NCBI GenBank assembly: GCA_950295325.1
Contig: OX485804.1
Span: 39,556,001 to 39,620,000 of the forward strand
DNA: 64,000 nt
Direction: 5' to 3'
Source: Polytrichum commune
Lineage: Eukaryota > Streptophyta > Polytrichopsida > Polytrichales > Polytrichaceae
Position numbers and translations under genes: made by a program. Each line of letters starts with the position of its first letter. Within the stretch, counting starts at the first letter, position 1. Shown in pieces: positions 16,478 through 40,330 of this stretch. The notes below the pieces were generated by a model. The model did not search any database. It was not told the DNA's origin and saw only the letters and a program-made list of their open reading frames with translations.

Positions 16478-17491
16478 GCCCATGAGACCATTACCAGAGG
16501 AGAAGAGGTTGAATGCTATAGCCTATCGCAACATGGGCATAGCACACATGAAGTGTCACAATTGTTGGGTATCTCTCAATCTACATGCTCTAGGATTTGT
16601 AGAGAGTGTGTTCCTCATGTGGAGCCTTGAAGAGGGGGGCGCCCAAGAAGCATCATCCCTGCTCAACGACAAGCATGTGTAAGAGCCATCATAGTTGATG
16701 GACTAGATAATGTTGTAGATGTTAGGAATGCTTTGAGTGAGCACTTGAATGTGGTAGTCAACATTAACATAGTGAGGCATGCACTTCATTAAGAAGGTCT
16801 TGGGTCATTAGAGAAATAGATGAAGTTGTTGTTCACGGCCAAGAATATGCATTGCAGGTTGGAATTTGCTCAACATCATCAAGATTGGACTATCCATGAT
16901 TTTTTGTGATGAGACTAAGATCAATCGATTTCAATCTTATGATTGCACTTGGTGTTGGGTGGGGATGGAGAATCTCAATTAAAAGCTCATCATATGAGTC
17001 GGACAATTAAATATGGAGGTGGTGCAATTTTTGTGCGGGGTTGTATGACTTCCCATGGCATGGATAACATATGTAAGATAGAGGGGAAGATGACATTAGC
17101 TCTGTATCTTAACATTCTTCAAGATGGGGTCAAGAAGACGATTGAATGGTATCATTTCAACCCTTCTCGTGTCATATTTCAGCATGATAATGATCCTAAA
17201 CATACTGCAAATTTAGCCAATCAGTGGTTGTCAATACAAAATATTAATGCACTTACTTGGCCTCCTCAATCACCTAACCTAAATTCAATTGAGCATGTGT
17301 GGGCACTTGTGACACGAAAATTAAATGAGTATCCAACATCATCCAAAGGAATGTTTCAATTGTGGGAGTGTGTGCAAGCTTCTTTTCATTCTATCATTCA
17401 TGAGCAATGTCAAAAGTTATATCATAGCATGCCCAATTGTATTCAAGTTGTTTTAGCTTCTAAAGGAGGTGGAGAAATTATTGATCTATAG
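16478..17491 (+). pseudogene. Tc1-type (DD34E) transposase, decayed
   Basis: The start encodes MRPLPEEKRLNAIAYRNMG, and after a frame shift EVSQLLGISQSTCSRICRE, a helix-turn-helix pair typical of Tc1/mariner enzymes. Stops follow at TGA near 16628, TAA near 16790 and TAG near 16816. The catalytic domain shows IFCDETK (first Asp) and, in the open frame 16943-17491, FQHDNDPKHTA (second Asp) and PPQSPNLNSIEHVW (Glu). From the Asp of HDN to the Glu there are 34 residues, the Tc1 signature. Terminal inverted repeats and TA duplications were looked for and not found by eye. The enzyme would cut and paste DNA at TA sites. This copy cannot. Confidence 0.85.
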
Positions 17492-25843: not shown

Positions 25844-25854
25844 TCATGAAGGTA
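25844..25854. repeat. Target site duplication at the LINE 3' end (TCATGAAGGTA)
   Basis: This 11-bp sequence is repeated exactly at 40331-40341, at the other end of the element, as expected for target-primed reverse transcription. Confidence 0.82.
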
Positions 25855-25872
25855 GATAGATAGATAGAAACT

Positions 25873-25896
25873 CCGGTCCCTAAGGCTAGGGGCCGG
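25873..25896. other. Terminal hairpin at the LINE 3' end
   Basis: CCGGTCCCTA, loop AGGC, TAGGGGCCGG: ten-position stem with one non-Watson-Crick pair (T-G on the plus strand, A-C in the element transcript). It lies 4 bp from the TAGA tail. A role in recognition by the element's own reverse transcriptase is inference. Confidence 0.65.
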
Positions 25897-26098
25897 CGTG
25901 AATAAAGTGTCCGTTCGTAATGCCAATGAACCGATGCCCACAGGACAAAGGAAAATTGGGACAGTACTACTCTCCCCTTTCGAGGATGGACACTATAGTA
26001 GCCAGTAACCGAGTAAAGAAGGCTTGCTGCAGTTATCAGCACGCTAGGTTGTTAAGTTGATGGTATAAGGTGTGAGTTTACGGCTTTGGTGATTGCTA

Positions 26099-26170
26099 AG
26101 TCATGATTCCTCGGTTGGTTGAGGGAGGGTGTTAGATTGGGAGACGTTCCGGGTTCGATTCTCGTTGAAT
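26099..26170 (+). other. tRNA-like segment (A- and B-box-like) within the LINE 3' UTR
   Basis: The plus strand shows a possible D arm, CCTC then GGTTGGTT then GAGG. About 35 nt later comes a T arm with the B-box-like GGTTCGATTC closed by CGGG and CTCG. The anticodon arm and acceptor stem do not fold well, so this is a tRNA-derived remnant rather than a tRNA gene. It is antisense to the LINE. Confidence 0.4.
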
Positions 26171-26339
26171 GTGTAGTTCATGACTTGGTGATGCTGTTGT
26201 GTTTTTAGAGGCAGGAATGTGTTACCAACCAACCGGCTCTTATCCCTCCCCTGAGCTATTAGTTTAACATGCTTTTGACTTAGTAGGTTAGTTAATTTAT
26301 TAGTATATTGGTTTATTTGTTTGCGTTGTTTTAGCTTAT

Positions 26340-27003
26340 TTACTCTGTGGGGATTGCTTGGTTATTTTCTATACGTCTCTTGTGTAGGAGAATTGAGCTA
26401 GCATATTGTATGGCGATAGTGTTTATTGCTTTGAATGTGTTTTTGACATTGTTTTCGGAAATTTTAAATGATTGTTCAAGTTGTTTTATTGATGGGATGT
26501 GCGTGGTGCCTCTGGCTCCTGCTGTAATGACTATAAGTGGGTCTACTTTCCATCCTTGTTGGGTGATGTCGTTAATTAGTGGTTGGTATTTAAGGGTTTT
26601 GTTGTCAATTGTCTCTTGTGAGAATCTGTCGTTAGTGTATGTGAATTCGATGAATTGTACCGTAAGGTTATTTGATGGGTATGGTGGGGGGGATGCTTTG
26701 GTGTGGGAGTTCTTTAATACATAGGAGGTCAGGTTTGAGTCTAGCATTGCATTGGCATCTTTGTTGGGCAAATGTACAAGCTAATAGCCATGTTGGAACT
26801 GTATTTTCTTGTGGGTTGTTGTTAAATGTCCCTGCATTCATTAAGGTGTAGCATCTTGAATTTTGTGATGATAGAATTAGTTTTCTGATTTCCCATACGG
26901 CTTTGTTGTGTCTTTTGGTTCTAAGGGCGTGTATGTGATGTTGGTTACATTTTAGTAGTATATGTAGCCATGTGTCTGCATCCGGTGAGTTACAGATTGG
27001 GCA
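26340..27003 (-). pseudogene. CCHC finger and restriction-like endonuclease domain of ORF2
   Basis: A CCHC finger, C-X2-C-X9-H-X4-C, lies at 27003-26947 (starting CPIC). It is followed by KRHNKAV (26905-26913) and KPDLL (26728-26736). After the G7 frame change come FIEFTYTNDR, KTLKYQPL and a VITAGARGTTHIPS segment. This matches, in order, the CCHC, RHN, KPD, D/E and K-rich motifs of the R2-type restriction-like endonuclease. Glu stands where Asp is usual. In R2-type elements this domain nicks the target DNA. Here it coexists with an AP-type endonuclease in the same protein. Confidence 0.78.
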
Positions 27004-27364
27004 TGTATTGGATGGGAATCTTTCTCTGCCAAAAAAATAGTTGTTTTCTAGCGTTACCCATGTATTGACCGGTGCGGAATTTTAGGAGACTAGTCTTTTG
27101 TGAGTCTGTTATTATTGGGTTAGACCAGAAGTGGTTAGATATTTCGTTGTCTATGTCCGGGTTTGTTGTCCATTTGTTAATGTTGGGAAATTGTATTGCC
27201 AATTTTTTTAGGTTGTTGTCTCTATCATATTTAGTGAGGTATGTTTCTAGACATCTTACGGGGCCTTTATCTGGTCTTTTTTTTGGTCCCGGCCATGTGT
27301 CTTTTTGGAAGTAGTATGGTGTGGTATGTGCAAATTCATATGTTTTGGCCGCAAATCTGTATCT

Positions 27365-27800
27365 CTTTTTAGTGCCTTGCTTTGCGAGTTGGTCGGCTTG
27401 TTCATTTCCATCAATGTTTATGTGTGCTTTTACTTTATATATTGTAGTGGGTTGTGTTCGGTTTTTTATCATTTCCACTATAGATGTTAGTATAATTTTG
27501 TCAGCATGGTTGTTGTGTTGAGTTGGGTGTTTGATTTGTGTGTTGATTACGTATATGCAGTTTAGGCAGTCTGTAAATATGTGTGCGGGTTCATTCGGGT
27601 ATTTGGTTGTAATTATTTTAAGTGTTTTGTATATGGCCATTAATTCTGCCCTGAAGATGGTTTGTAGGCCGGGTAGTCTTTTTGATATACGTATTTCTGT
27701 TTTGGTTGGGTTATAGATTCCATAGCCAGCTTTCTCTTTTTTCCAGTGTCCGTCATTAGCTTTCATAGGTGGGATAAACGAGCCGTCGGTGTAGTAACTG
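27365..27800 (-). pseudogene. RNase H domain of ORF2
   Basis: In order: YYTDGSF (first catalytic Asp), GYGIYN, RAELMAIYKTL (Glu), HIFTDCLNCI (Asp), KVKAHINIDGNEQADQLAK (final Asp). All four acidic residues of RNase HI are present in this 610-codon open block (28822-26990). It would remove RNA from RNA-DNA hybrids during element replication. Confidence 0.92.
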
Positions 27801-30099
27801 TATTGTGGTGGAAATTTTAATGTGGTTTGTGTTTCGTAATTTGGTATTGGCGGTATGTTTGTAATTGATGGGTTGGTATGTGGTGGGTAGATTAGTTTAT
27901 TCCATTTAGTATTTTTGTTTACGGTTGTATGGTTTGGTGTGGGTGGGGTCATTTGTATATGGTATTGTGTTATCTGTAGGTTTTCTAGTGTTGTTTTAAT
28001 TGTGTCTATTTGGTTGCGGGTGCCGAAGTTATTTTGTCTGTGGTGGATGCAGAGGATGTGTATTGCTAATGGTTCTGTTAGTGGTTTATTGAGGTTATGG
28101 GAGTTTGTTGGTACATCGTATGTAATGGAATCTGCAGCGAAATGTGCTAGAACATGCGTGTCTGGGAATGGTCCTATATGTGGCGAGTAATTTTGGTACC
28201 AATTTGCGTCTGGTGTGACTATTAATGTGGTGGTGTTCGGGTCATTTTTGGCTGCTAAACGTGCCCAGTGTATTGCTTGTTGTGTCATTTCTTCGTTATG
28301 AGGGTGGGCATATCCTATTCCTTGCCATTTGTGTTGGAAAGCGGTGCCTAGTGATCCAAAGATTTTATCTCTTGTGAATGGTGAGAAATATTTTGTAATG
28401 TGTGTGGAGCATGTTATTGGTGAAGAGAAGTATGAGTGTGAAATGTTAAATGTTTTTGTAATGGAGTCAAGGAGGTTTTGTGGGAGAGTATGTTGTGATA
28501 CTTTTAGTGGGTCTTTTTTTGGTATGTGAGAGTGGTATCTTTGATATAGCCATACTATCTCCGTTTCGAATGGTTGTGGGGGTGGTATTAGGTCGTATGT
28601 CCTGTAGGGGTCTTTGTTGTATTGTTGCCACAGCCATTTTAGTCTGGTGGTTGGGATGGTGATGAGGTGTCTACCTGTGTCTTCGTATATGTGTGTTATT
28701 TCGTTTTGTGTTTGTATAGTGTGGTTTGTTGTGTTAATGTCTTTTTCTGGGTTACATTCTATTATTGATAATTGGGTGTGCGGTGTTATTGTAGGTGGAG
28801 GTATGTATCTTGAATCCTTCATTTGTGGGGGAGTTACATGGGTGTGTATTAGTTTTTTGTAATGGTTGTGTTGTTGTTTTGTATAGTATTATTTTAGTAG
28901 GTTGATGTTGTGTATGATTACTGAGGGATGGTTTTGTGGGAATAATTCCCTTTGTGCCATCCACTTGTAGTACGTTGTGTTGTTTTGGATTGACCATTCG
29001 CATAGGTATGAGTTGTATTGTTTTGTGATTTTATATTTGTCTTTCGTTGCATTTGATTTGTGGCTTAGTATTTTGTGTATAGGAAATTTTATGAAATTAT
29101 TTTTTATGTTGGGGTTGTTGGGGTTGTTGGGGTTGTTGTGGTGTTGGTAGGTGTAAGGGATTGTCCGAAGTTCTGGGTAATATTTCACTATTGTCTGATA
29201 TGTATTTTTCGTGAAGTGTGTGGATTTGTGGGTGACTATTACATTGGTTTGGGCAGTTTTGATTACATCTTCGTTGGCAGAATAGTTGTTCTGCTATGTG
29301 TAATGCGTTTTTTATTAATTTTGTCGGGGTTTTGTAGTAGGTTTGGAAGTCTGTAGGTGACATTAATTGTGTGCCATTTGGGAGGGAAATGTGTTTTATT
29401 TTACTTATATTTTGTGCTAGGAGTTTATATAGGAGCTTGAGAGATAGCTCGTTGTTTAGTTGTGGTAGTATGGTTGTGGCTTGGGATTTCCATTCTGTTT
29501 CGAGCTCAGATACGTGGAGTTGGAAGTTTGCTTCTATGCTCTTGAGGTGGGCCCCTCCTTCCTTCTTCATAAGAAATAATGTTCGTGTTGTAGGTGACCT
29601 TGTACAATCGTGGTATTTAATTCTATGTATGTCTTCTGTTCCTCCGTATTTTGCCAAAATGTGTTGTATGAGTCCTTTGTAAATTATGCCAAGTCTGCCG
29701 GGGTCATTGAGTGCATTTCTAAGTTGTTCACTGATACATCTCAAATAGGCATTTTTTAGTGAGAAGGCTTCTAATCCGAATAAATTGTGTGGCAGTTGGG
29801 TTATTATGTTTGCTGTATATTTGGAAAGGCCACATATTGTTTTTTGGATTCCAGTAATTTTTTTGTCTAGCTTTATGATGACTGGTATTGAATATGAAAC
29901 TGCGTAGAAGCTATAGGCTATACTGGCTCTGATAACAGTGTCTACCATACTTATTTTTTGTTTGATTGTTGCTGGGCAATTTGTTAATAGTTTGCATTGG
30001 TTTATCATTTTGGTTGTGGTGATGTGTGTTTGGAGTTTCCATTTTAATGATGGTACTAGTTGTATTCCTAAGTATACATATGGTTCATTTTGGTGTAGA

Positions 30100-31090
30100 A
30101 CAAGTATTGGTTGGTTCCTGTAGTTGATGTTATAGGATTGGATTATGGCTTTGAATATTTCAGGTTTTATTTTTGATTTGTTTGGACAGCCCGTGATGGC
30201 GCATTTAGGCACTCCCAGGTCCATTCCGGCCCATTCGCAATATTTGTCGAGTCTGTGTAGTTGGGTCTGTATTGATTGGAGATTGTTTGTGATAGCTGCT
30301 AGGTCGTCTGCGTATGCTGCAAAGCTAATTGTTAGTTTGGATGTTCCAAATGTGTATCCATTATGTCCTCTCTGTAGCCAGCGTAGTAGTGGTTCTAGGA
30401 ATATTAGGAAGAGGTATGGGCTAAGTGTGTCACCTTGTATTGTGCCTCTTTGTATTGGTATGAGTTTTGTTTTTCCAAAGTGTTCCCCTGTAAATATCGT
30501 ATTGGAGTTTGAGTAGATGTTTCCTATTAAAAATACGGCATCTTCTGGATATCCTAAGTCTTTAGTTACTGCTAGTAGTCTTGCATGGTCAAGAGATCCA
30601 AATGCGTTTTTGAAATCGATATATAATAGGTAGATGTCTTGGTTTGTAAATCTTGCGTCTTCTAGTGCAGCTATAAGGAGTTGAAGTTGTCTGGATGTGC
30701 TTCTTTCTGCTCTGAATCCTTCTTGGCTGTCGTGTAGGATCTGGTATTTTTCTCCGTATGCTGAGAGTATGGATGTAAGAGTGCTCGTAAAGAGTTTTTA
30801 TACTGTATTTGTGAGTGCAATGGGTCTATGATTTATTAATTTTGAGGGATCTCCTTTTTTGTATAGTAATATGGTTAGGCTTATTTTCCAGGAAGTTGGT
30901 ATTTGTTTTTGTTTGTAACAATGAGAGAAAAGTAAGAAAAGTAATTTGTGGAAGCTTTCGGGCATATTTTTTAGGATTATGTTGGGAATTCTGTCGGGGC
31001 CTGGCATTTTGTTGCTTGCTAGATTTTTTAGACACATGTCGTATATTGTTCTGTCGAAGTATTCGTGTAGTGGGGTTTTAGGGTTCCCTC
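30100..31090 (-). pseudogene. Reverse transcriptase domain of ORF2
   Basis: Motifs in order: KMPGPDRIPN, LLYKKGDPSKLINHRPIALTN, EGFRAERST, YIDFKNAFGSLDH (motif A), QRGTIQGDTLSPYLFL (motif B), FAAYADDLAAI (motif C, YADD at 30303-30314), then a YLGIQL-type palm end. A TAA at 30798-30800 lies directly before KLFTS, where Tyr is common in relatives. Otherwise the domain is open. Confidence 0.95.
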
Positions 31091-31949
31091 TTTTATTGAT
31101 GACAAATCCGTCTAGGTCATGCCACGGATATTGTTTAACACCACATGTGCATTTTGGTGTGTGTACTGGTTGGTGATAACATGTTGGTACAGTGGGCCTG
31201 TTGCTAATAGATTGTTGGTTGTGTATTTCGTTGGCTATGTCGGTGGGATTTGTAAGTATGGTGTTGTTTGCATATTTAATGCAGTCTAATGGGGGTGTGT
31301 CTTGGTTTTTGAAGACTCTTTTGTTAATTTTCTTGGGACTTTTGTCGTAAAGTAGTCTGTACTTAGATATGGCTTTTTTTATACATTCTTGGGTGTATTT
31401 TGTGGTGATTTTACGGGCATTTTTATGTGCGGTTTTGGCGATTTGGGCTATGGTTGTTATCTAGTCTATTTGATTAGGGTCTTGGTTGGGGGGGGGGTGG
31501 GATGGGAGTTTGGGTATGATTCCTTAGTTCTTCTATTATGGGGTGTGTTTGCCAATTTGGTACATTTTTTACTAAGTAAATTACTTTCCTGATTAGGTGG
31601 TAAGTGGAGAGGTGGTTTTTCCATTTTTTTTGGAGTTTTCTTGGTAGAAAGCCTCCTTGTTGTGATGTACGGTTTGTGAGGTCTGGGAGAGGTGGTGCAC
31701 TGCATGTATGTTGGATTTTATCTGAAATTTTTTGTATTAGATGGTCAAACATTGTGCATGTTGTTAGCCATTGTTCTTTGGTTAGTTGGTTTTGTTTTAA
31801 AGTGTTTGTGAGTTCATTTAATTCTGGTGCATTTTCTTCGAAGAATTTTGTTTTGAATTTTTCTATATTTGTTTGGGGGATGGGGTTTAGGATCCTCGGG
31901 GGTTTATCTGTAGTTGGTGGTAGACACCGGGCTAGTAGGGTGTTTGGTG

Positions 31950-32735
31950 GGATGTGTAGTGTTACTGGGGAGTGGTCTGAGTTGAGATTATGGGCGTTAT
32001 TTGTTGTTGATGTGTATAAGATATTGTTGGGTGTTTTAATGTAGTATCCGTCAATTAGGCTAGTTTGGTTATAGTCTTGACCCCCTTATCTGGAGTATAA
32101 GCTATTTGTGGGGATATATGTGAGTTGAAGACTATTCATAAATGTACGCCATTCTATATCTTCTGCATGTGGTGGTGTTGTGATATATCCGTTTTGTCGC
32201 CCGATGAGGGCTATGTCTCTGTTGAAGTCTCCGCATAGGATGTGTGTGTGGTTTGGGTGGTTAGTAGTTTGTTGTGTTATGTTTTGTTGTATAATTGGTA
32301 TTAGTCTTGTATCTTCTTCGTGTGATGGCATGTATATGTTTATTATTAGCCATGGTTCAAGGGGTTGGTTATTTAATTCTATTATTTGTAGATATGGTGA
32401 TATCGCAGATGGGGTGGGGATTTTAGTGATGTTGCCTGGGTATGCGTATTTTTTGTTTATGAATGTTATGAGCCCTCCTCTTGCAGGTGTGTATGGCATT
32501 CTTTGTTGTATACACCTTGTTAATGTATGTGTATTGTTGAATATTAGTTTGTATTGCGGGAATAAGTTTTGTATGTATTTTGTGGATTTTGTTGCGGTTA
32601 ATTTAGTTTCTTGTATGGTGATAATTGCCGGGTTGTTTGGTGTGTTTGATATGAGTTGGTGGAGGTTTGGTAAGGCTGTGTTCAATGAGGAGGCATTCCA
32701 TGTGATTATGTGTGTGCTGTGATTTGTTGTTTGGT
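31950..32735 (-). pseudogene. AP-endonuclease (EEP) domain of ORF2
   Basis: Motifs in order: IITWNASSL, ITIQETKL (catalytic Glu), ARGGLITFI, WLIINIYMPS, THILCGDFNRD, the SLIDGYYI segment and NLNSDHSPVTLHI (SDH at 31972-31980). A single TAA (32086-32088) interrupts the frame just after YSR. The full set of apurinic-endonuclease-type motifs is present. In LINEs this domain nicks the target to prime reverse transcription. Confidence 0.92.
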
Positions 32736-33348
32736 TTGTTTGGGGGCGTATTATGGGATAGTTAGGTGGTGGTGGGGGATGTGAATATTCGTGTAGGGGT
32801 TCATTATATTTTAGGGATTCTGAGAGTAGGTTTGTCGGTAGGAAGGGGAATTTATCTGTCAACATTTGAATGGTTAGGGGACCAATGCTTTCTTGGATAA
32901 AGGTGTAAAGTTCTTTGTGGATGGTGTTGGATGGGTTGACAATGCTTTGGTTTGTTTGCAGGAATTGTGTATATGGGTGTGTGGGTGTGATGTGTCTTTC
33001 TGGTGGGTTTTGAAGTGATGCCATTTTTTCTAACACCTTTGTTGTCCAATCTGGTACCGGGGGTTGTATTAGTATGTGGTTACATGTCTCTATACGTGGG
33101 CTAATTGTGGTAATAAGTGCATATAATATACGTGGGGGTGGGTGGTGTTGGTTTCTATGGATGTAACTAGATAGGTATGGATATTTGTCACTTGCGTCTT
33201 GGTGGTTTGGGTGTGTTATATTTATGATAGGAGAGAATTGTTTTGCGAGGTGTTGGTAGTCGGGTTGTAATTTTATTGTGCATTCAATGAAATAACTTTT
33301 GCATCTGTTCCTATGTGTGGGTGGGTGTGTTTGTAGGATATTGGGCAT

Positions 33349-33414
33349 GGGGCCTGGGTTGGTTTCAATATCTCCGCTAAGTAGTAATAGTAAGTGTTCG
33401 AAAGATTTTTTACT
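33349..33414 (-). other. 2A-type ribosome-skipping site in ORF2
   Basis: Minus-strand translation reads FEHLLLLLSG followed by DIETNPGP, with the final Pro codon at 33349-33351 and a Met directly after it. DxExNPGP after a Leu-rich helix is the 2A consensus, in which the ribosome omits the Gly-Pro bond and continues. It would release the first 837 residues and begin the endonuclease-RT product at Pro838. 2A-like sequences are established in trypanosome and sea urchin non-LTR elements. Activity here is inference from an exact consensus match. Confidence 0.88.
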
Positions 33415-33554
33415 TATGGTGTGGTTTGTTTGTTTTTTGGGAGTTTCATGTCTTAGTATTTTATTATTATTTCTTTTATTGCCTATGTTGGTTTTAGTGG
33501 TGTTTTTGGGTGTTTGTTTGGTATGCGTGGTTGCATATATGAATTTGTGTTTAA

Positions 33555-33577
33555 GGGCGAGGCCGGTAGGCCGAGCC
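33555..33577 (-). repeat. ARPTGL element, copy 3
   Basis: Plus strand holds GGCGAGGCCGGTAGGCCGAG, encoding ARPTGL in the ORF2 frame. It is the GC-rich exception in a stretch that is otherwise G/T-only. Confidence 0.85.
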
Positions 33578-34541
33578 TTTTGGGGGTGGCTATTATGAGT
33601 TGTATGATGTATGATTTTGTTTTGGGTTTTAGGGGAGTTGGTTGGAGGTGGGGTGTTGTTGTGGTTTGTTGTTTTAGGGGTGGTGTAGGGTGGATTTGGT
33701 TGTTTGTTTGTTATTATTTCTATTTTGTATGTTTTTGGTTTTTTTTTGTATGTGTTTTTAGTTCTTTGTAGTTGTTTTATGTTTATTTCTATCTTATGCT
33801 TGTTTGTGCCTTTTTGGTTTTTTTTTGGTGGGTTAGGTGTTTTGTTTTTGGTTGAGTTGTTTGTAGGTTTTTTGTTTTTTGTAGATTTGGGTGTTTGTGT
33901 TTGTTTAGAGAGTTTCGATCTATTGTTGTTTGGTTTTGGGTTATTCGTTGTGTGGTTGTTTTTTGTTTTTTGTTTTATACGAGTGTAGGTGGTATGTATT
34001 GTTGTGTTGGTGATTTTGAGTTTGGGTGTATTTGTTTTGGGCCCTTTTTTCTTTGTTTTTCTTAGTGCTAATATAATTTGTGTGGGGGTTTTAAGATGGG
34101 GCAATTGTATGGGATATGGGTTTAGATTAAGGGGTTTTATAGGGTTGTGTTCTTGCATGCGTTTGGTAGGTTTTTTGGTATTGTTTTTGGGTATTATGCT
34201 TTGTTTTTTAGGTGTTTTCGAGATGTTTTTAAGGCTTTGGGGGCGTGATATGGGTATGTATGTCTGTGTTTTATAGTTGTTTGTATGTTTTAGTTTATTT
34301 TTCGGTAAGGTTGTGATGCTTCCATGTAGTGCTATTGTTTGTTGTAGAAGGGGTGTGTGGATTGTGGGAGGATTTTCTAGTTTTTTGGGGTTAGGGTTGT
34401 ATTTTGAATTATGTATTTTGGTGTAGTTGAGTGTTGTAATATATCTTAGGTGATTTGTGATCTTTTTTAGTGGTTGTTTGTTGATATATGTGGTTTGGTT
34501 TTTTTTATTTTGTCTTGTTTGTATTTTGGTTGCTTTGTATT

Positions 34542-34564
34542 GGGCGAGGCCAGTAGGCCGAGCT
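34542..34564 (-). repeat. ARPTGL element, copy 2
   Basis: Differs from copy 3 by A for G in the centre and T at the last base. It lies 987 bp from copy 3 and encodes RARPTGLA. Confidence 0.85.
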
Positions 34565-35531
34565 CGATTTAGGTGTTTTATGTTGGTTTTTTGTGTTTGG
34601 TGTGGTTGTGTATATTGGTTTATGATAGTACTTCTAGAAAGGGATGTGGTGTTGTTAGTCGTTGTATGTTTGGTTGTGTGTTTAACTAAAATGGTGTAAG
34701 ATGTGTTGGGTGTATTTATTCTTAGTTTGTTGTATTTTTTTGGTTGGTTGTATGTTTGTGTAGCCTTGAGAGGGTATGTGTTGGTTTTGTTTATTCCTTT
34801 GTTTGGGTGTTTATGTGTATGTGGTTTTGGGGTTTTGTATGTTGTGTTGTGGGTTTGTGCGTTTATATTTTTGTGTGTTTGGGTTTGTTTGGCGGGGTTT
34901 AGGTTTACTTTGTTGTGATGGTGTTGATTTTTTGTTTTTTGTGTGGTTTGTATAAGGACATGTGGTGGTGTTATTTTTTTTAGTATTATTTTGTATGTTT
35001 GTTTTAGTTTTATTGGGTTTGTTTTATGGATAGTATTTTTGTTTTTTATTTGTTCTTGTGTTTTACCGTTGATAGTTGACCATACCGTTTCTAGGGGGTG
35101 TGGTTCGTGTATTGTGGGGTGTGGTTCTAGTTGTTTATGTGGAGGGTAGTTATTATTAGTGGGTTTTGTGTTTTTTAGGTAGGTGTGTTGTTTGGGCTTA
35201 TTTTTGTTTTTCTTTTGTGTATGGATGGAGTTGGTTTTTGTGGTTTCGTTTGTGGTTCTTATTGTGGTTTTTGTGTTTTTGTGTTTGCTTTGTTTGTTTG
35301 CTTGGTGATTGTTATAAGGTGACGGGATGTATGTCTTCTTATGGTTAGGTGTGGGTTTGGTTTTTAGTTTAGCTAATTTTGTTTTGAGCTTGTATATTGT
35401 ATATTGTGGGGTATGATTGTTATGTTTATTTGTATGTTTGTTGTTATATTGTTTGGGTGGTGTTGGGATGTGGTTTGTATTTTGTGAGTTTGATGTTTTT
35501 GTTTTTGTGTGTTTATATTGGCTTTGTCTTT

Positions 35532-35554
35532 GGGTGAGGCCGGTAGGCCGAGCC
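35532..35554 (-). repeat. ARPTGL element, copy 1
   Basis: Differs from copy 3 by T for C at the fourth base. It lies 990 bp from copy 2 and encodes RARPTGLT. GGCC-N4-GGCC can form a short hairpin. Confidence 0.85.
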
Positions 35555-35897
35555 CTTTTTAGGAGATAGGAGTTTTTCCATATTGCCTTTTGATGTGTGT
35601 TTTGGAGTCTTATTTTGTATCTTTTGTGATGTAGGGTGTGTTTTATTGTATTGGGTTTGTGTGGTTTGGGGTGTGTTGGTTTTGAGTTTGTTGGGTTGTT
35701 GTCTTTTGTTTTGGGTGGGTTTTTTTGTTTTGGTTTTGGTTTATGTTTTTGTGTGGAAGCATTTAAGAATGCTTTATTTGTTATTGTTTGTTTTGTTACT
35801 TTAGCATTTCCAAATGCTATTGGTTTTGTTCTTTTTTCTTTTCTTTGTGTGGATACACACATTTTTGGAAGGTAGGCTATGTGGTTGGTTTTCCAAC

Positions 35898-37676
35898 CTA
35901 GTTTTCCAATTGGGGTTGTGATGGGGTGAGGATGGAGTCGAGTGCTTTGGTTGTCATGTTGACCGCTTGGGATGTTAGTGTTAGTTGCTTTCTTATTTCT
36001 TCCAATTGTTGTTTGACGTGTGTTGTTAGATTCCGGGAGATTCTTTCTTCCCGGACATCCGCCTCCAAAGTGACTTCTTTCTTGAACTCTCCCATTTCTT
36101 TATGTATTTCCGCGGTGAGTTCTGCTTTGAGTTCGGTTATTAGTTGTCCGTTCCGTTTGTCTATGGCGGTTTCGACTAGAGTATCTAGGTCTTTAGGTGT
36201 AAACATGGCACTTTTACCTTTGCTTTGAGGTGCATTCCGGGTGGCTTCAAGGGTATCCGCAATTGCGGTGGTGATGTCACAAAAGCCTAGTTTCTCTTGC
36301 TCCTCCTTGGTGGGGGGGATTGCTCCTTGAAGACTTTTTGGGTGGGGCACAAAGCTAACATGCTTACCAAATATTTCAACGGTCTTGCCTACCCATTGTC
36401 TATAGACAATGGCGTTAAGGCATTGAACATTGGCCGTACCTTTGTGTAGCTCTCCTACTTGACCCGGGAAGTAAAATGAAACTACATTTAATCCCCCTAG
36501 TACGGCTTTAATGGAATCCTTTGTGTCCTCTATTTTTTTCATCTTATGGAGCCCATAGAGACATAACATGGTTGCATTTTTTCTTTTGATTTCATCCTCC
36601 GTGAGCCCTTCTCCACGGCTTCTCCTTTCCGCTTTGGCCGCTTGAGGCGTGATTACTTGCATGAGTTCATGCTTATAAGGGACTAAGTATTGGATGATCC
36701 TATTCGCTTGTGTGGGTGTGGTTGAAATGAGCCAACCCCATGTCTCCTCCTTGACCTTTTGGACGCTTGCAATTTCGTAATCATAACCACGCCTAAAGCT
36801 CTCAATTAGAACGTCTCTTTGTAATTCACTTGCGGAAATGAGATGGAGTTTTGGGTTCTCAATTTTGGTGGAAAGCAAGGTGTTCCTTGCTATTGAGTCA
36901 TAGCACTTGCAAGTTTTCCCTAGGGTTTGAATGTTGTCAAGTGTCAAGATAAAGGGGCGTAGCCCCTTTAACATGCCAATGCCATCAATTCTTGGATGTT
37001 TAAGGTGAATTTTAATTGTCCCCGTCCAAAATTTGATCTTGCTATTCCTTTCCTTCTCCTTGCAAGGTATGTAGATAGGCTCAGCTAGTCCCATCCCTAA
37101 TTCAATGCTCATGAGTGCAAGTCTAGTGTTAGCCATTGTAAGTATCTCATTGTGAGTGTAATCCTTTGATGGTCTCTCAAAGTGAATGGCTATATGGTAA
37201 TCAAGGGAGAGCCCTGTACCTGGGTCAACTTCCATTTCGATGGGTAGTTGCGTTAGGTTGAAATGCTGCCCTCCTTTCCCATCCGGTCTCTCTAGAGGGT
37301 AAAGGAGTTGCTTAACGTGTGGGAATGCAATCTCACCAAGATGGCTCAACTCTTCCGCTTCCACCTCCGATATGCCGGATTTGATAAGGTCCTCCTTCTT
37401 CATGGATGGCCTACAATCTTTTGGTTTGATCCCTTCATCAATGGCAAGTTACTCCATGGCCATGATTCCGAGCCAAAAGTCACGGGGTGTCTCCTTCAAT
37501 CCGGTTGAGAGTTCCATGTTCTTCTTCCTCTTGCTTGAGCTACCTCCCTTCTTAGTTTCTTGTGTTCTCTTGGGTTGGTTAGGCTCTATCACCATAGTAT
37601 CCTCGGTGTCTTCCATGTTGGTGTCCGTAGGACTTCTCATGATCGCTTCGTGTACGGCTTTACCTCTGTTCGCCAT
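35898..37676 (-). pseudogene. LINE ORF1 protein, 592 codons with one in-frame stop
   Basis: The start ATG at 37676 opens MANRGKAVHEAIMR. TAA at 37449-37451 (codon 76) lies between MAME and LAIDEG, one C-to-T change from Gln (CAA), and the frame then stays open for 501 codons after Met 37403. Base use is balanced, unlike ORF2. The last ~100 residues are rich in Glu, Lys, Leu and Ala in heptad-like order, so a coiled coil is likely. I recognise no RRM or CCHC motif. By position it should be the nucleic-acid-binding ORF1 protein of the element. That role is inferred from place alone. Confidence 0.7.
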
Positions 37677-40330
37677 CTGTTGATCACAATTAATTCCAAT
37701 GTAAGTATTGATGCTTTTGTCTCCTCCTCCCTTTTGCGCGTGCAATCGGGCTTTGTAGAGGAGACTAGAGCTTTTAATTGTGTGGGTGCAAGTGTTAGGT
37801 ATTATATGCGCTATTGTATGGTGATTTTTAGTTTTCTTTGCTGGTTTGATTAGAGGTATGTGGTTATGACGGGAATGGGTATAACCTGTGTTGTTCTTAT
37901 TCGTTAAGTTTGCTGAAATTGAGAAGCTGAAATGATGGCACAATGAGTTAGGGGACTTACCTGTAGTGTAGTCTTGAGGTGTTGTCGTGCTTTGTATCTT
38001 GGTGTAGGTCAGTGCTTGCATGTGTTGGTGTTGATGCGGTGATGTAGATGAGTTTGCTCCAACTTGTCGTAGTGGTGGGGTGGAGGGGCTCAAGCTGTTT
38101 GGTTCGAGGAGGTAGAGCCGGTGTGCTCAAAGACAGTTTCGTATGATGTGGGAATTCGGAGATTGTAGCACCTCTTGATTTGCCAAACACACACTCTTAA
38201 CCCATCCAGCACGCTCAGTTATGGGTTGGGTACTTACAGTTCCGAGGACCACACATCATTACTCAGTCGGTCTTTGATACACTCCATGCTTGGGTGTAGT
38301 GTGTTCACGCTGATAGCAAGGCCAACCTACTCGGTGTCCATGAATTCTAAGTGATAGAACCAATGCTATGTTCCTACACTCTGCCGAATAACCCCCCAGC
38401 TTGCTCAGTTTGGGCTCTTGGTTCTATTACACTTGAATTACACACACACCTGATGTAGTATCAATCTATGCTGGCACAAACAACTCTACTGTAATCTATC
38501 CTAGGCACACAGCGGGGAATCACCCCCTTTGCTTGGGTTAGTCCCAAGCAGCTTGACTAAGAGACCTACTCCTGAGCAGATTGATTGCACGGTTTGTTGC
38601 AATAGGCTGTCGGTTTGTAATTGGGTAGAGTTTGGGCAATTCGGTGAAGTGGATCAGCTGTTCCGGCTGAGATTTGGTATCGGGGCAGAGGAGCGAGCCG
38701 CGTGAGCAGACTCTGTGGGACAGACTTCGTGATCGGCCTTCAGCAGAGGCCTCGATACCAATCTCTGTAGGTGCTCTACCATGAGTCACCTACTGTTGTC
38801 CTCTTGTCTGCTACCAGGTCTCCTCGGAGGTTGTCTCCGTGGACTCTGAATTTCTTCTTAGGCACAAACTACACATTGATCGAAAATACACCGCAAGCAA
38901 TCAGCAAGGAAACTGGTTCCTAGAGATCTTACAGGGTGGTTGTCGGCAGTGAGCGTTGTATGTGTCCTCCGAAGTCCAGACTCCACGAGTGTGCTCCGAG
39001 AAACACCGCCGAGGGTTTCTTCCCGGTTCTGCGATGTGATCCGGAGGTGAGTTCTCCTTGGGTGTTCTCCGTCAGTGGGCGCTCTCGGGCTCTGCAGTAG
39101 GCTTCGGGGTGATCTTCCCTTGGATGCTCTCCCAGGACTCAAATGCTTCAGGTTGAATCCGAAGATTGGACTCCTTGGTGTTCTCTGGGAGACACCGAGT
39201 TTGTTCTCCGTGATCTATTACCTTCGATCAATCAGGTCCTGGGAGACTCTCCTGTTGGGGTCTCCGAAATTTCTCGAGCGCTCTCTGAGAGTCTCGTGAG
39301 GTGGCCTCTTCGAGTAGCCAGCTTGAGCATTCTTCGATTTTGTCGAAGGATCTGCTTGGGCGACTACGCTGGGAGGTATCTCTTCGGTATCCGTGAGCGA
39401 GATCCGTACTGCAGAGGAGTTACTCACTGGGTTACACTCCGAGGGCCTCCGGGGAGACCTTTGTGGGTGATGGGTCTTCCACGATCGTTCACCGAGAGTC
39501 ACCTTAGGTGGTCTACTAGAGCTACCCTTGAGCACTCTCTTAGATTGTCTAAGGTGATCTGTGTAAACAAGCTTCGGGGCTCTATGAACCAGGGAGTGTG
39601 GTCCCTGGTCGAACTGTGAAGGTCATGGTTCTACAAGAGATACCTGCCTCTGTATCCGTGATCGATGCCGTGGTTGTGAGCACAGATCCCTTGACTCGGG
39701 CAGCCGAATTGCACACACGTGGTCTCCAAAGTGTTTCCCGTGGGCGGTGAAGTTCCAAGATCTCCCGGAGATCTCTCGGGTAGTCCCAGTGCACTCGTTT
39801 AGATTGCCGAGGGCGATCAGTTTGAGCGGCTTAGCTTCTACCGTTGGGTGGCTACTCTAGCCGATTCGTGGTGTGCCGTCCGGATCCCCGAGTTGGGCTT
39901 TGTGGGTCGCTACGTTCGACGTCGATCACGGTGTTCGGTCAGCTCCACACTCCTGGGTTCCTTGTAGAAGCCCCCGTAAGCATCCTTCGAGGGCAGCCTG
40001 TTACGGTGTCCACTAAGATTCGCCGGCGGTCACCAGCATCGAGTTGAGAAGAACTCCAAAGGGCGATCTACATCTATTCCGACAGATCTAGAGTGTTTGC
40101 AACTAACGCGTCCTATCTGCTGCATTCGGTAACTCAGTCTAAGCTGTTCATACTTCTACGGGTAGCTTGAATATGCACACACTGCTTGTGTTTGGTATTG
40201 ATGAGATTGGGATCACCCACATCGTCTGTACTCTTAACACAACGTGTTTGCAGAAGCTCAAACGGCTATCACGGCACCTCCTCCCACCCTCCGCACTTTC
40301 AGAGCTCTCTCACGGCCATCCTTCTCCCAT
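37677..40330 (-). promoter_or_regulatory. 5' UTR and putative promoter of the LINE
   Basis: About 2.65 kb upstream of ORF1, GC-richer than the surroundings. Between 38500 and 40050 it has loosely repeated blocks (for example CTCTGAGAGTC, CACCGAGAGTCACC, CCCGGAGATCTC; TTGAGCATTC, TTGAGCACTC; CGTGATCGAT, CGTGAGCGAG) at about 200-280 bp intervals. Such tandem 5' monomers drive transcription in several LINEs. No TATA box or start site could be fixed. Some stretches are open in one frame but show no protein features. Confidence 0.5.

Follow-up and report, generated by a model that had tools for sequence, protein, structure and literature searches.

LINE architecture and domain content

The window, that is, the whole 64-kb stretch of DNA that was analysed, carries on its minus strand a mobile element that is, by its domain content, a two-ORF, APE-type LINE. 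An earlier note on this DNA had already assigned the locus to a LINE, and rightly so, as endonuclease, reverse transcriptase (RT) and RNase H are all found downstream of the 2A motif that is the main subject here. The features, in the direction of the element, are the following:

35898..37676, minus: ORF1, with its ATG at 37676-37674 chosen by eye and its TAG at 35900-35898; no Pfam match
33352..35862, minus: A/C-rich leader of ORF2, 837 codons, from the ATG at 35862-35860 to the 2A glycine; no Pfam domain
35533..35554, minus: GC-rich element, third copy, 1 mismatch; no match expected
34543..34564, minus: GC-rich element, second copy, 2 mismatches; no match expected
33556..33577, minus: GC-rich element GGCTCGGCCTACCGGCCTCGCC, the copy nearest the 2A site, 0 mismatches; no match expected
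33349..33414, minus: putative 2A/StopGo site, SKKSFEHLLLLLSGDIETNPGP; backed by the DxExNPGP rule, homologues and siblings
32707..33351, minus: N-terminal helical domain of the downstream product, its first residue is the proline that follows the predicted break, and its inner boundary is approximate
32089..32706, minus: APE-type endonuclease (Exo_endo_phos), Pfam PF03372, E 4.5e-08; ended by the TAA at 32088-32086
29100..31460, minus: reverse transcriptase region, interrupted by one TAA; Pfam RVT_1 at 29100-30797 (E 2.3e-22)
26990..28888, minus: PCIF1-like domain, then RNase H; PF12237 E 2.9e-11, PF00075 E 2e-15
26340..27081, minus: C-terminal part of ORF2 in two frames, with a zinc-knuckle-like CPICNSPDADTWLHILLKCNQHH; Cys/His pattern by eye

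ORF1 is counted as part of the element because 28 of 34 siblings also have it upstream of ORF2, and the ATG that opens ORF2 stands 35 nt past the ORF1 TAG. The reading frame that holds the 2A site is open from 36099 to the TAA at 32088-32086 (1337 residues), and beyond this stop the same frame continues to 31477 without a Pfam match. The helical domain is conserved in the alignment of homologues and appears as helices in an AlphaFold model (mean pLDDT 61.9), while the endonuclease model matches TDP2, exonuclease III and APE1 in Foldseek. When compared with the PDB, the RT profile finds R2 as its best match (E 5.8e-54) and L1 ORF2p at 2.2e-29, with other RTs in between. Endonuclease and RT belong to one ORF2, which is broken between them in the window copy; in the homologue P0014, the endonuclease, the RT and the 2A site all share one frame.

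The window copy of the LINE is dead. Its ORF2 contains in-frame TAA codons at 32088-32086, about 30798 and about 28889, and frame changes near 31470, 29100, 27000 and 26700, and ORF1 is interrupted once, by an in-frame stop at 37451-37449. The fact that all three in-frame stops of ORF2 are TAA raised the question of TAA recoding, which was set aside because the frame changes elsewhere in ORF2 make ordinary decay the simpler account. The regions 25851-26420 and 35401-39800, chosen without mapped element ends, share no 11-mer that could mark a target-site duplication.

In addition, the surroundings of the element show several features of their own. Between 26000 and 36000 the sense strand of the LINE is A/C-rich (plus-strand GC skew 0.37-0.69), an extreme strand asymmetry from which ORF1 is exempt. 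At 26100-26270, beside the 3' end of the LINE, tRNA-like promoter boxes are seen by eye, perhaps belonging to a SINE, without an Rfam match; Rfam finds nothing in the 64-kb window at gathering scores. The neighbouring genes are plant-like in appearance, and it is on them that the plant assignment rests: they include a MULE-type transposase and an aquaporin that is closest, among solved structures, to TIP2-1 (1.8e-44) and next to animal aquaporin-0 (5.7e-27). A DDE_3 transposase fragment at 16943-17491 (plus strand) is, judging by eye, presumably Tc1-like, and a Tc1-like transposase is unusual in a plant.

A further peculiarity of ORF2 is a domain resembling PCIF1/CAPAM, the cap-adenosine methyltransferase, which lies between RT and RNase H (26990-28888, minus) and is conserved in relatives. 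It matches PF12237 at 43.7 bits against a cutoff of 31.1, and PF12237 or RNase H is annotated in 64 of 65 relatives retrieved with this region, both being annotated in 20. The top Foldseek matches of the modelled domain are PCIF1/CAPAM (E 8.6e-08 to 6irw), but at low TM-scores of 0.21 and 0.27 and from a model of mean pLDDT 51. Unlike PCIF1/CAPAM, however, the LINE domain sits inside ORF2 and apparently lacks NPPF, the catalytic motif of that enzyme: in a weak PDB alignment (E 0.028) AHP-H stands opposite ANPPF, and A194, H195 and P196 are invariant in 13 sequences of the domain. The catalytic motif has thus apparently been replaced, which makes catalysis doubtful. None of the papers listed in the literature search was seen to describe a PCIF1-like domain within a LINE.

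The probable 2A site and the ORF2 leader

The earlier note had claimed an exact 2A ribosome-skipping consensus in ORF2, separating a leader from the enzymatic part. The motif is real and its coordinates are right. Minus-strand positions 33414-33349 encode SKKSFEHLLLLLSGDIETNPGP, the next codon is an ATG (33348-33346), and the whole lies in one open frame, whereas the plus strand has four stops across the same interval. The core DIETNPGP occupies 33372-33349, and the predicted break falls between glycine (33354-33352) and proline (33351-33349). The domain order bears out the claimed place of the site between the 837-codon A/C-rich leader and the endonuclease part, and coding sequence lies on its two sides in one frame, whose translation is supported by sequence evidence.

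The core agrees with the StopGo rule (D/G/C/N)(V/I)ExNPGP. The upstream context agrees as well, since the leucine-rich lead that had been pointed out before DIETNPGP ends in LLLLSG, a known StopGo hexapeptide class to which it is assigned by sequence match; according to PMC12846837, the classes include LLLLSG-like ones, and leucine-rich motifs end in (A/S/C)G before the aspartate. If the site works, ribosomes would enter ORF2 at the ATG after ORF1, by reinitiation or leaky entry, and would translate the A/C-rich leader. At NPG^P the leader would be released, ending in glycine, without a stop codon, and the ribosome would continue to make a separate enzyme beginning with Pro-Met-Pro-Asn.

The leader (33421-35900) consists of about 53% A, 30% C, 12% T and 5% G, and over 817 codons (35862-33412) it contains no stop in the 2A frame, as opposed to 49 and 48 in the other two frames. 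Openness by chance in a T-poor sequence was rejected, as 300 dinucleotide shuffles of the leader give a mean of 36.5 stops (sd 5.0, minimum 21). Across 35 copies (the window and its 34 siblings), the frame of the 2A site stays open upstream of it for a median of 107 codons, the other two for 6 and 3. Start codons were compared in 15 copies, namely the window and 14 of the 28 ORF1-bearing siblings, chosen because their match reaches the end of ORF1 or nearly so and this end resembles that of the window (the offset of L021 was set by eye). An ATG lies 35 nt past the ORF1 stop (38 nt past the last sense codon) in 12 of the 15 and 34 nt past it in another, and the same position is GTG in L013 and ATC in L027. 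The runs from this ATG extend over 744 codons in L017 and over 25-73 codons in L014, L026, L029 and L034, and only the window, alone among the 15 copies, has a leader that is unbroken from the ATG through the 2A site.

The leader therefore looks translated, yet its protein sequence is not conserved in the subfamily of the window. On internal branches of the sibling tree, 103 replacement changes and 24 synonymous ones fall in the 24 codons at positions 7 to 30 ahead of the core, a ratio that may be inflated by noise in the alignment, and beyond that stretch in the upstream direction the homologues cannot be aligned with the leader of this subfamily. As the frame is kept open while the protein is not conserved, the leader seems to be selected mainly for openness, and because it also changes fast, a 2A site would allow the enzyme to be made free of the leader product.

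A different role for the leader deserves some weight, although it seems unlikely: it could work as a protein in its own right, disordered and highly basic, such as a nucleic-acid chaperone acting beside ORF1p, in which case 2A would make two working proteins. Lysine and arginine make up 20.5% of the leader in the window, and aspartate and glutamate 1.8%, and the leaders of the homologues P0006, P0008 and P0012 have alignable starts and hydrophobic segments; however, A/C-rich DNA by itself yields such an amino-acid composition, and the lack of protein-level conservation noted above argues against such a function in the window's subfamily. As a separate observation, the hydrophobic segments of P0006, P0008, P0012 and also P0015 are possibly membrane-spanning, the leader of the window being basic instead.

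The leader also contains repeated copies of a GC-rich element, a 22-nt near-palindrome spaced at 987-990 nt. Allowing up to 4 mismatches, 34 of the 35 copies contain it, with 74 instances on the sense strand, and there are none on the antisense strand of the 35 copies and none in two shuffled sets; an 18-nt pattern of the element was not found in viral contigs. It is read as an ARPTGLA-like string in the window, P0005 and P0010, and SAYRPR-like strings, which are what the next frame of the same DNA would give, occur in the protein sequences of P0001-P0004, P0007 and P0009; both are absent in the other five of 13 homologues. Because it is apparently read in different frames in different subfamilies, the evidence points to an element that acts at the nucleotide level. 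It can be folded as a hairpin, GGGC-TC-GGCC-TACC-GGCC-TC-GCCC, but in the 74 instances a two-sided change is seen at just one of the ten pairs (G-C to A-T, 3 instances), and the changes at other pairs are one-sided or break the pair, such as 20 A-C at one pair. For this reason, a DNA or protein-binding site is considered as likely as a conserved RNA hairpin. The regular spacing, together with a degenerate copy of the 2A domain in P0010, had also raised the idea that decayed 2A-domain copies lie behind the repeats; these do not explain the spacing, because the leader of the window gave no match to the 2A domain.

The apparent change of frame within the GC-rich element and the excess of replacements before the core would also fit a leader that is untranslated, with ORF2 beginning near the 2A site by internal initiation, so that skipping would remove a few tens of residues. 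Further in favour of such late initiation, the runs from the ORF1-proximal ATG fall short of the 2A site in 14 of the 15 copies (two of them without an ATG). On the other hand, 0 stops against 36 expected in the window, a 2A frame that is open far longer than the others in 35 copies, and an ATG 34-35 nt past ORF1 in 13 of 15 copies all speak for a translated leader, which leaves late initiation improbable.

Translation of the leader followed by skipping would make a 'transit' leader possible, in which hundreds of codons are selected only for the passage of ribosomes and carry repeated GC-rich RNA or DNA elements, the resulting peptide being discarded by 2A; some relatives with a doubled site would then give three products. 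This extension is put forward tentatively and is somewhat less likely to be right than wrong.

Conservation of the 2A core

Conservation of the motif in sibling copies had been proposed in the earlier note as a check, and it is borne out. The genome search covered 407.8 Mb, and 40 of 425 candidates were scored; without the match to the window itself and five others that begin only beyond the 2A site, 34 siblings remain for the counts. NPGP is kept in 29 and the full D(I/V)ExNPGP core in 25 of these, and D12, N16 and the methionine that follows the core are present in all 35 copies when the window is included. The core is lost through NLGP (2), NPRP (2), NPGS (1), K at position 14 (p14; 2), a stop at p14 (1) and T at p13 (1). 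Over the 458 codons from the 2A site through the endonuclease, ten siblings are without a stop or frame change, and eight of them keep the core (L023 with R instead of G at p11). The disrupted siblings keep it in 17 of 24 cases, and hence the share of losses among the open ones (2/10) is about the same as among the disrupted ones (7/24). The earlier note had named loss of the motif from otherwise intact siblings as evidence against the site. No such loss is seen when intactness is judged over the 458 codons and the follow-up beyond them, because the two open siblings without the core are broken further downstream: the match of L020 ends after 61 residues of the RT region, and in L031 the endonuclease part is hit by a stop plus a frame change and the RT region by a further stop.

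Selection was followed by simple parsimony on a tree of the 35 copies, where both the tree and the counts are small. The eight core codons show 16 synonymous changes and at most one replacement on internal branches, the single replacement, at the glycine, being a tied assignment between L022 and L023, as compared with 16 synonymous and 11 replacement changes on terminal branches. The internal branches of the endonuclease carry 315 synonymous and 189 replacement changes, and those of the helical domain 272 and 268. The internal branches of the core differ in Fisher tests from those of the endonuclease (p = 0.008), from those of the helical domain (p = 0.0003) and from its own terminal branches (p = 0.015). 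A caution comes from the nonsynonymous fraction taken by itself, in which 47 of 451 eight-codon windows do not exceed the core. As internal changes are nearly all synonymous while the terminal ones stand at 16 : 11, the pattern marks the core as held by selection in moving lineages and lost through decay after insertion.

Distant homologues extend this picture. With the 2A-endonuclease region as query, a search of 5.8 billion proteins returned 15 relatives, of which 13 have NPGP and two (P0011 and P0013) start downstream of the site. A profile of the region was also run over 196 fetched proteins, which combine three protein searches, one of them contributing the best 120 of 210 matches: NPGP is present in 13 of 13 homologues that cover the site, and none of the 196 covers the site without it. 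It should be kept in mind that the queries for homologues and for genome siblings included the 2A site, which may favour matches that keep it. The 13 homologues are 36-76% identical to the window in the alignment, and among 438 eight-residue windows GDIETNPG and DIETNPGP rank highest in conservation. Together with the window, these 14 sequences contain 16 NPGP sites, since P0006 and P0008 have two each and also repeat part of the domain that follows; in P0010 the leader contains a complete but degenerate duplicate of the 2A domain. Read from the table of these sites, p11 is G and p12 is D in 16 of 16; p13 is I in 15 and V in 1, and p14 holds E at 12 sites, H at 3 and Q at 1. Position 15 is free, NPGP is fixed, and the upstream stretch is leucine-rich but variable, with S, C, G or H ahead of the p11 glycine.

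This position-by-position constraint, which follows the StopGo rule, also bears on the idea that the NPGP region owes its conservation to a structural role, as a joint leading into the N-terminal domain of the enzyme, without any skipping. The domain just after the motif is likewise well conserved, as a joint would predict; however, the model is disordered here (residues 1-34, pLDDT < 50), and H at p14, which PMC12846837 describes as over 95% active in its natural context, would be a coincidence for a joint. The same source cites 26-56% activity for a p14 Q mutant. A purely structural joint is thus quite improbable. A chance match, for which nothing speaks except the shortness of the motif, is ruled out by the selection on the core, by NPGP in all 13 site-covering homologues and by the expectation from ORF composition of 6.8e-6 occurrences of DxExNPGP in the ORF, and correspondingly the motif occurs in none of 2000 base shuffles of the ORF DNA (NPGP alone in 14), with just one further NPGP (SNPGPKP, without DxE) in the six frames of the window.

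Outside this set, viral contigs searched with the 2A-endonuclease and RT alignments gave no relative, nor did genome contigs searched with the 2A-endonuclease alignment; the RT alignment found two genome contigs, filed as bacterial MAGs. One of them, the partial contig L001, has the endonuclease and no NPGP in three forward frames, a weak hint that the wider RT group may be without 2A. The other, L002 (PUOC01000032.1), is filed as a Clostridiales MAG and has a related RT, as well as PHD-finger-like and PCIF1-like stretches by eye; it is probably a misbinned eukaryote. P0133, a piece of the LINE family that is recorded under Candidatus Nitrosocosmicus as an RNase H family protein, is probably misbinned too.

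Taken together, the sequence and selection tests place the motif in the StopGo family and support the 2A interpretation with which the analysis started: the site is very probably a working one that frees the ORF2 enzyme from a fast-changing leader. Some caution is due, as not all D(V/I)ExNPGP sequences are active according to PMC11512398.

Relation to known 2A systems

A plant LINE family in many copies whose 2A is under selection would represent natural use of StopGo in plants. Such a family offers many 2A variants already tried by evolution, to which its wider relatives add H and Q at p14, and it suggests how a LINE keeps its enzyme free of a quickly changing N-terminal region. It would also be a direct test case for whether selection can act on a reading frame for its openness alone. 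In the titles and abstract openings of the open-licence literature, no description of 2A in a plant LINE was found; a plant case may be included in Odon 2013, because its title reportedly speaks of multicellular organisms. The presence of 2A in LINEs is itself known, and what appears new is the host setting and the anatomy.

According to the cited sources, 2A occurs in LINEs of trypanosomes, the purple sea urchin and 'a range of other species' (PMC4981915, PMC5972666), and in non-LTR elements in general (PMC11512398). These LINEs resemble the present family in having D(V/I)ExNPGP in frame with the proteins of the element (PMC4981915, PMC11512398, PMC5972666). The family described here differs in its plant host, its 837-codon open leader with GC-rich elements and its PCIF1-like domain, a comparison that is made through the cited descriptions and not by homology.

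The closest likeness in the motif itself is to the RNA-virus StopGo sequences of the leucine-rich class 2/6, which share the hexapeptide ending in G, D at p12, NPGP and an occasional H at p14, as described in PMC12846837. In contrast to these, the present site belongs to a cellular mobile element, and the residue before the glycine is S, C, G or H in this family. The same source describes natural StopGo as rare in cellular genes and plant viruses as being without natural use of it, even though it works in plant cells (PMC12846837). Finally, the 2A of sea-urchin NOD-like receptors is also found in a cellular gene, near the start of the useful protein; however, its 26 residues themselves form an N-terminal signal sequence, whereas the plant LINE 2A follows a long open leader (PMC4981915).
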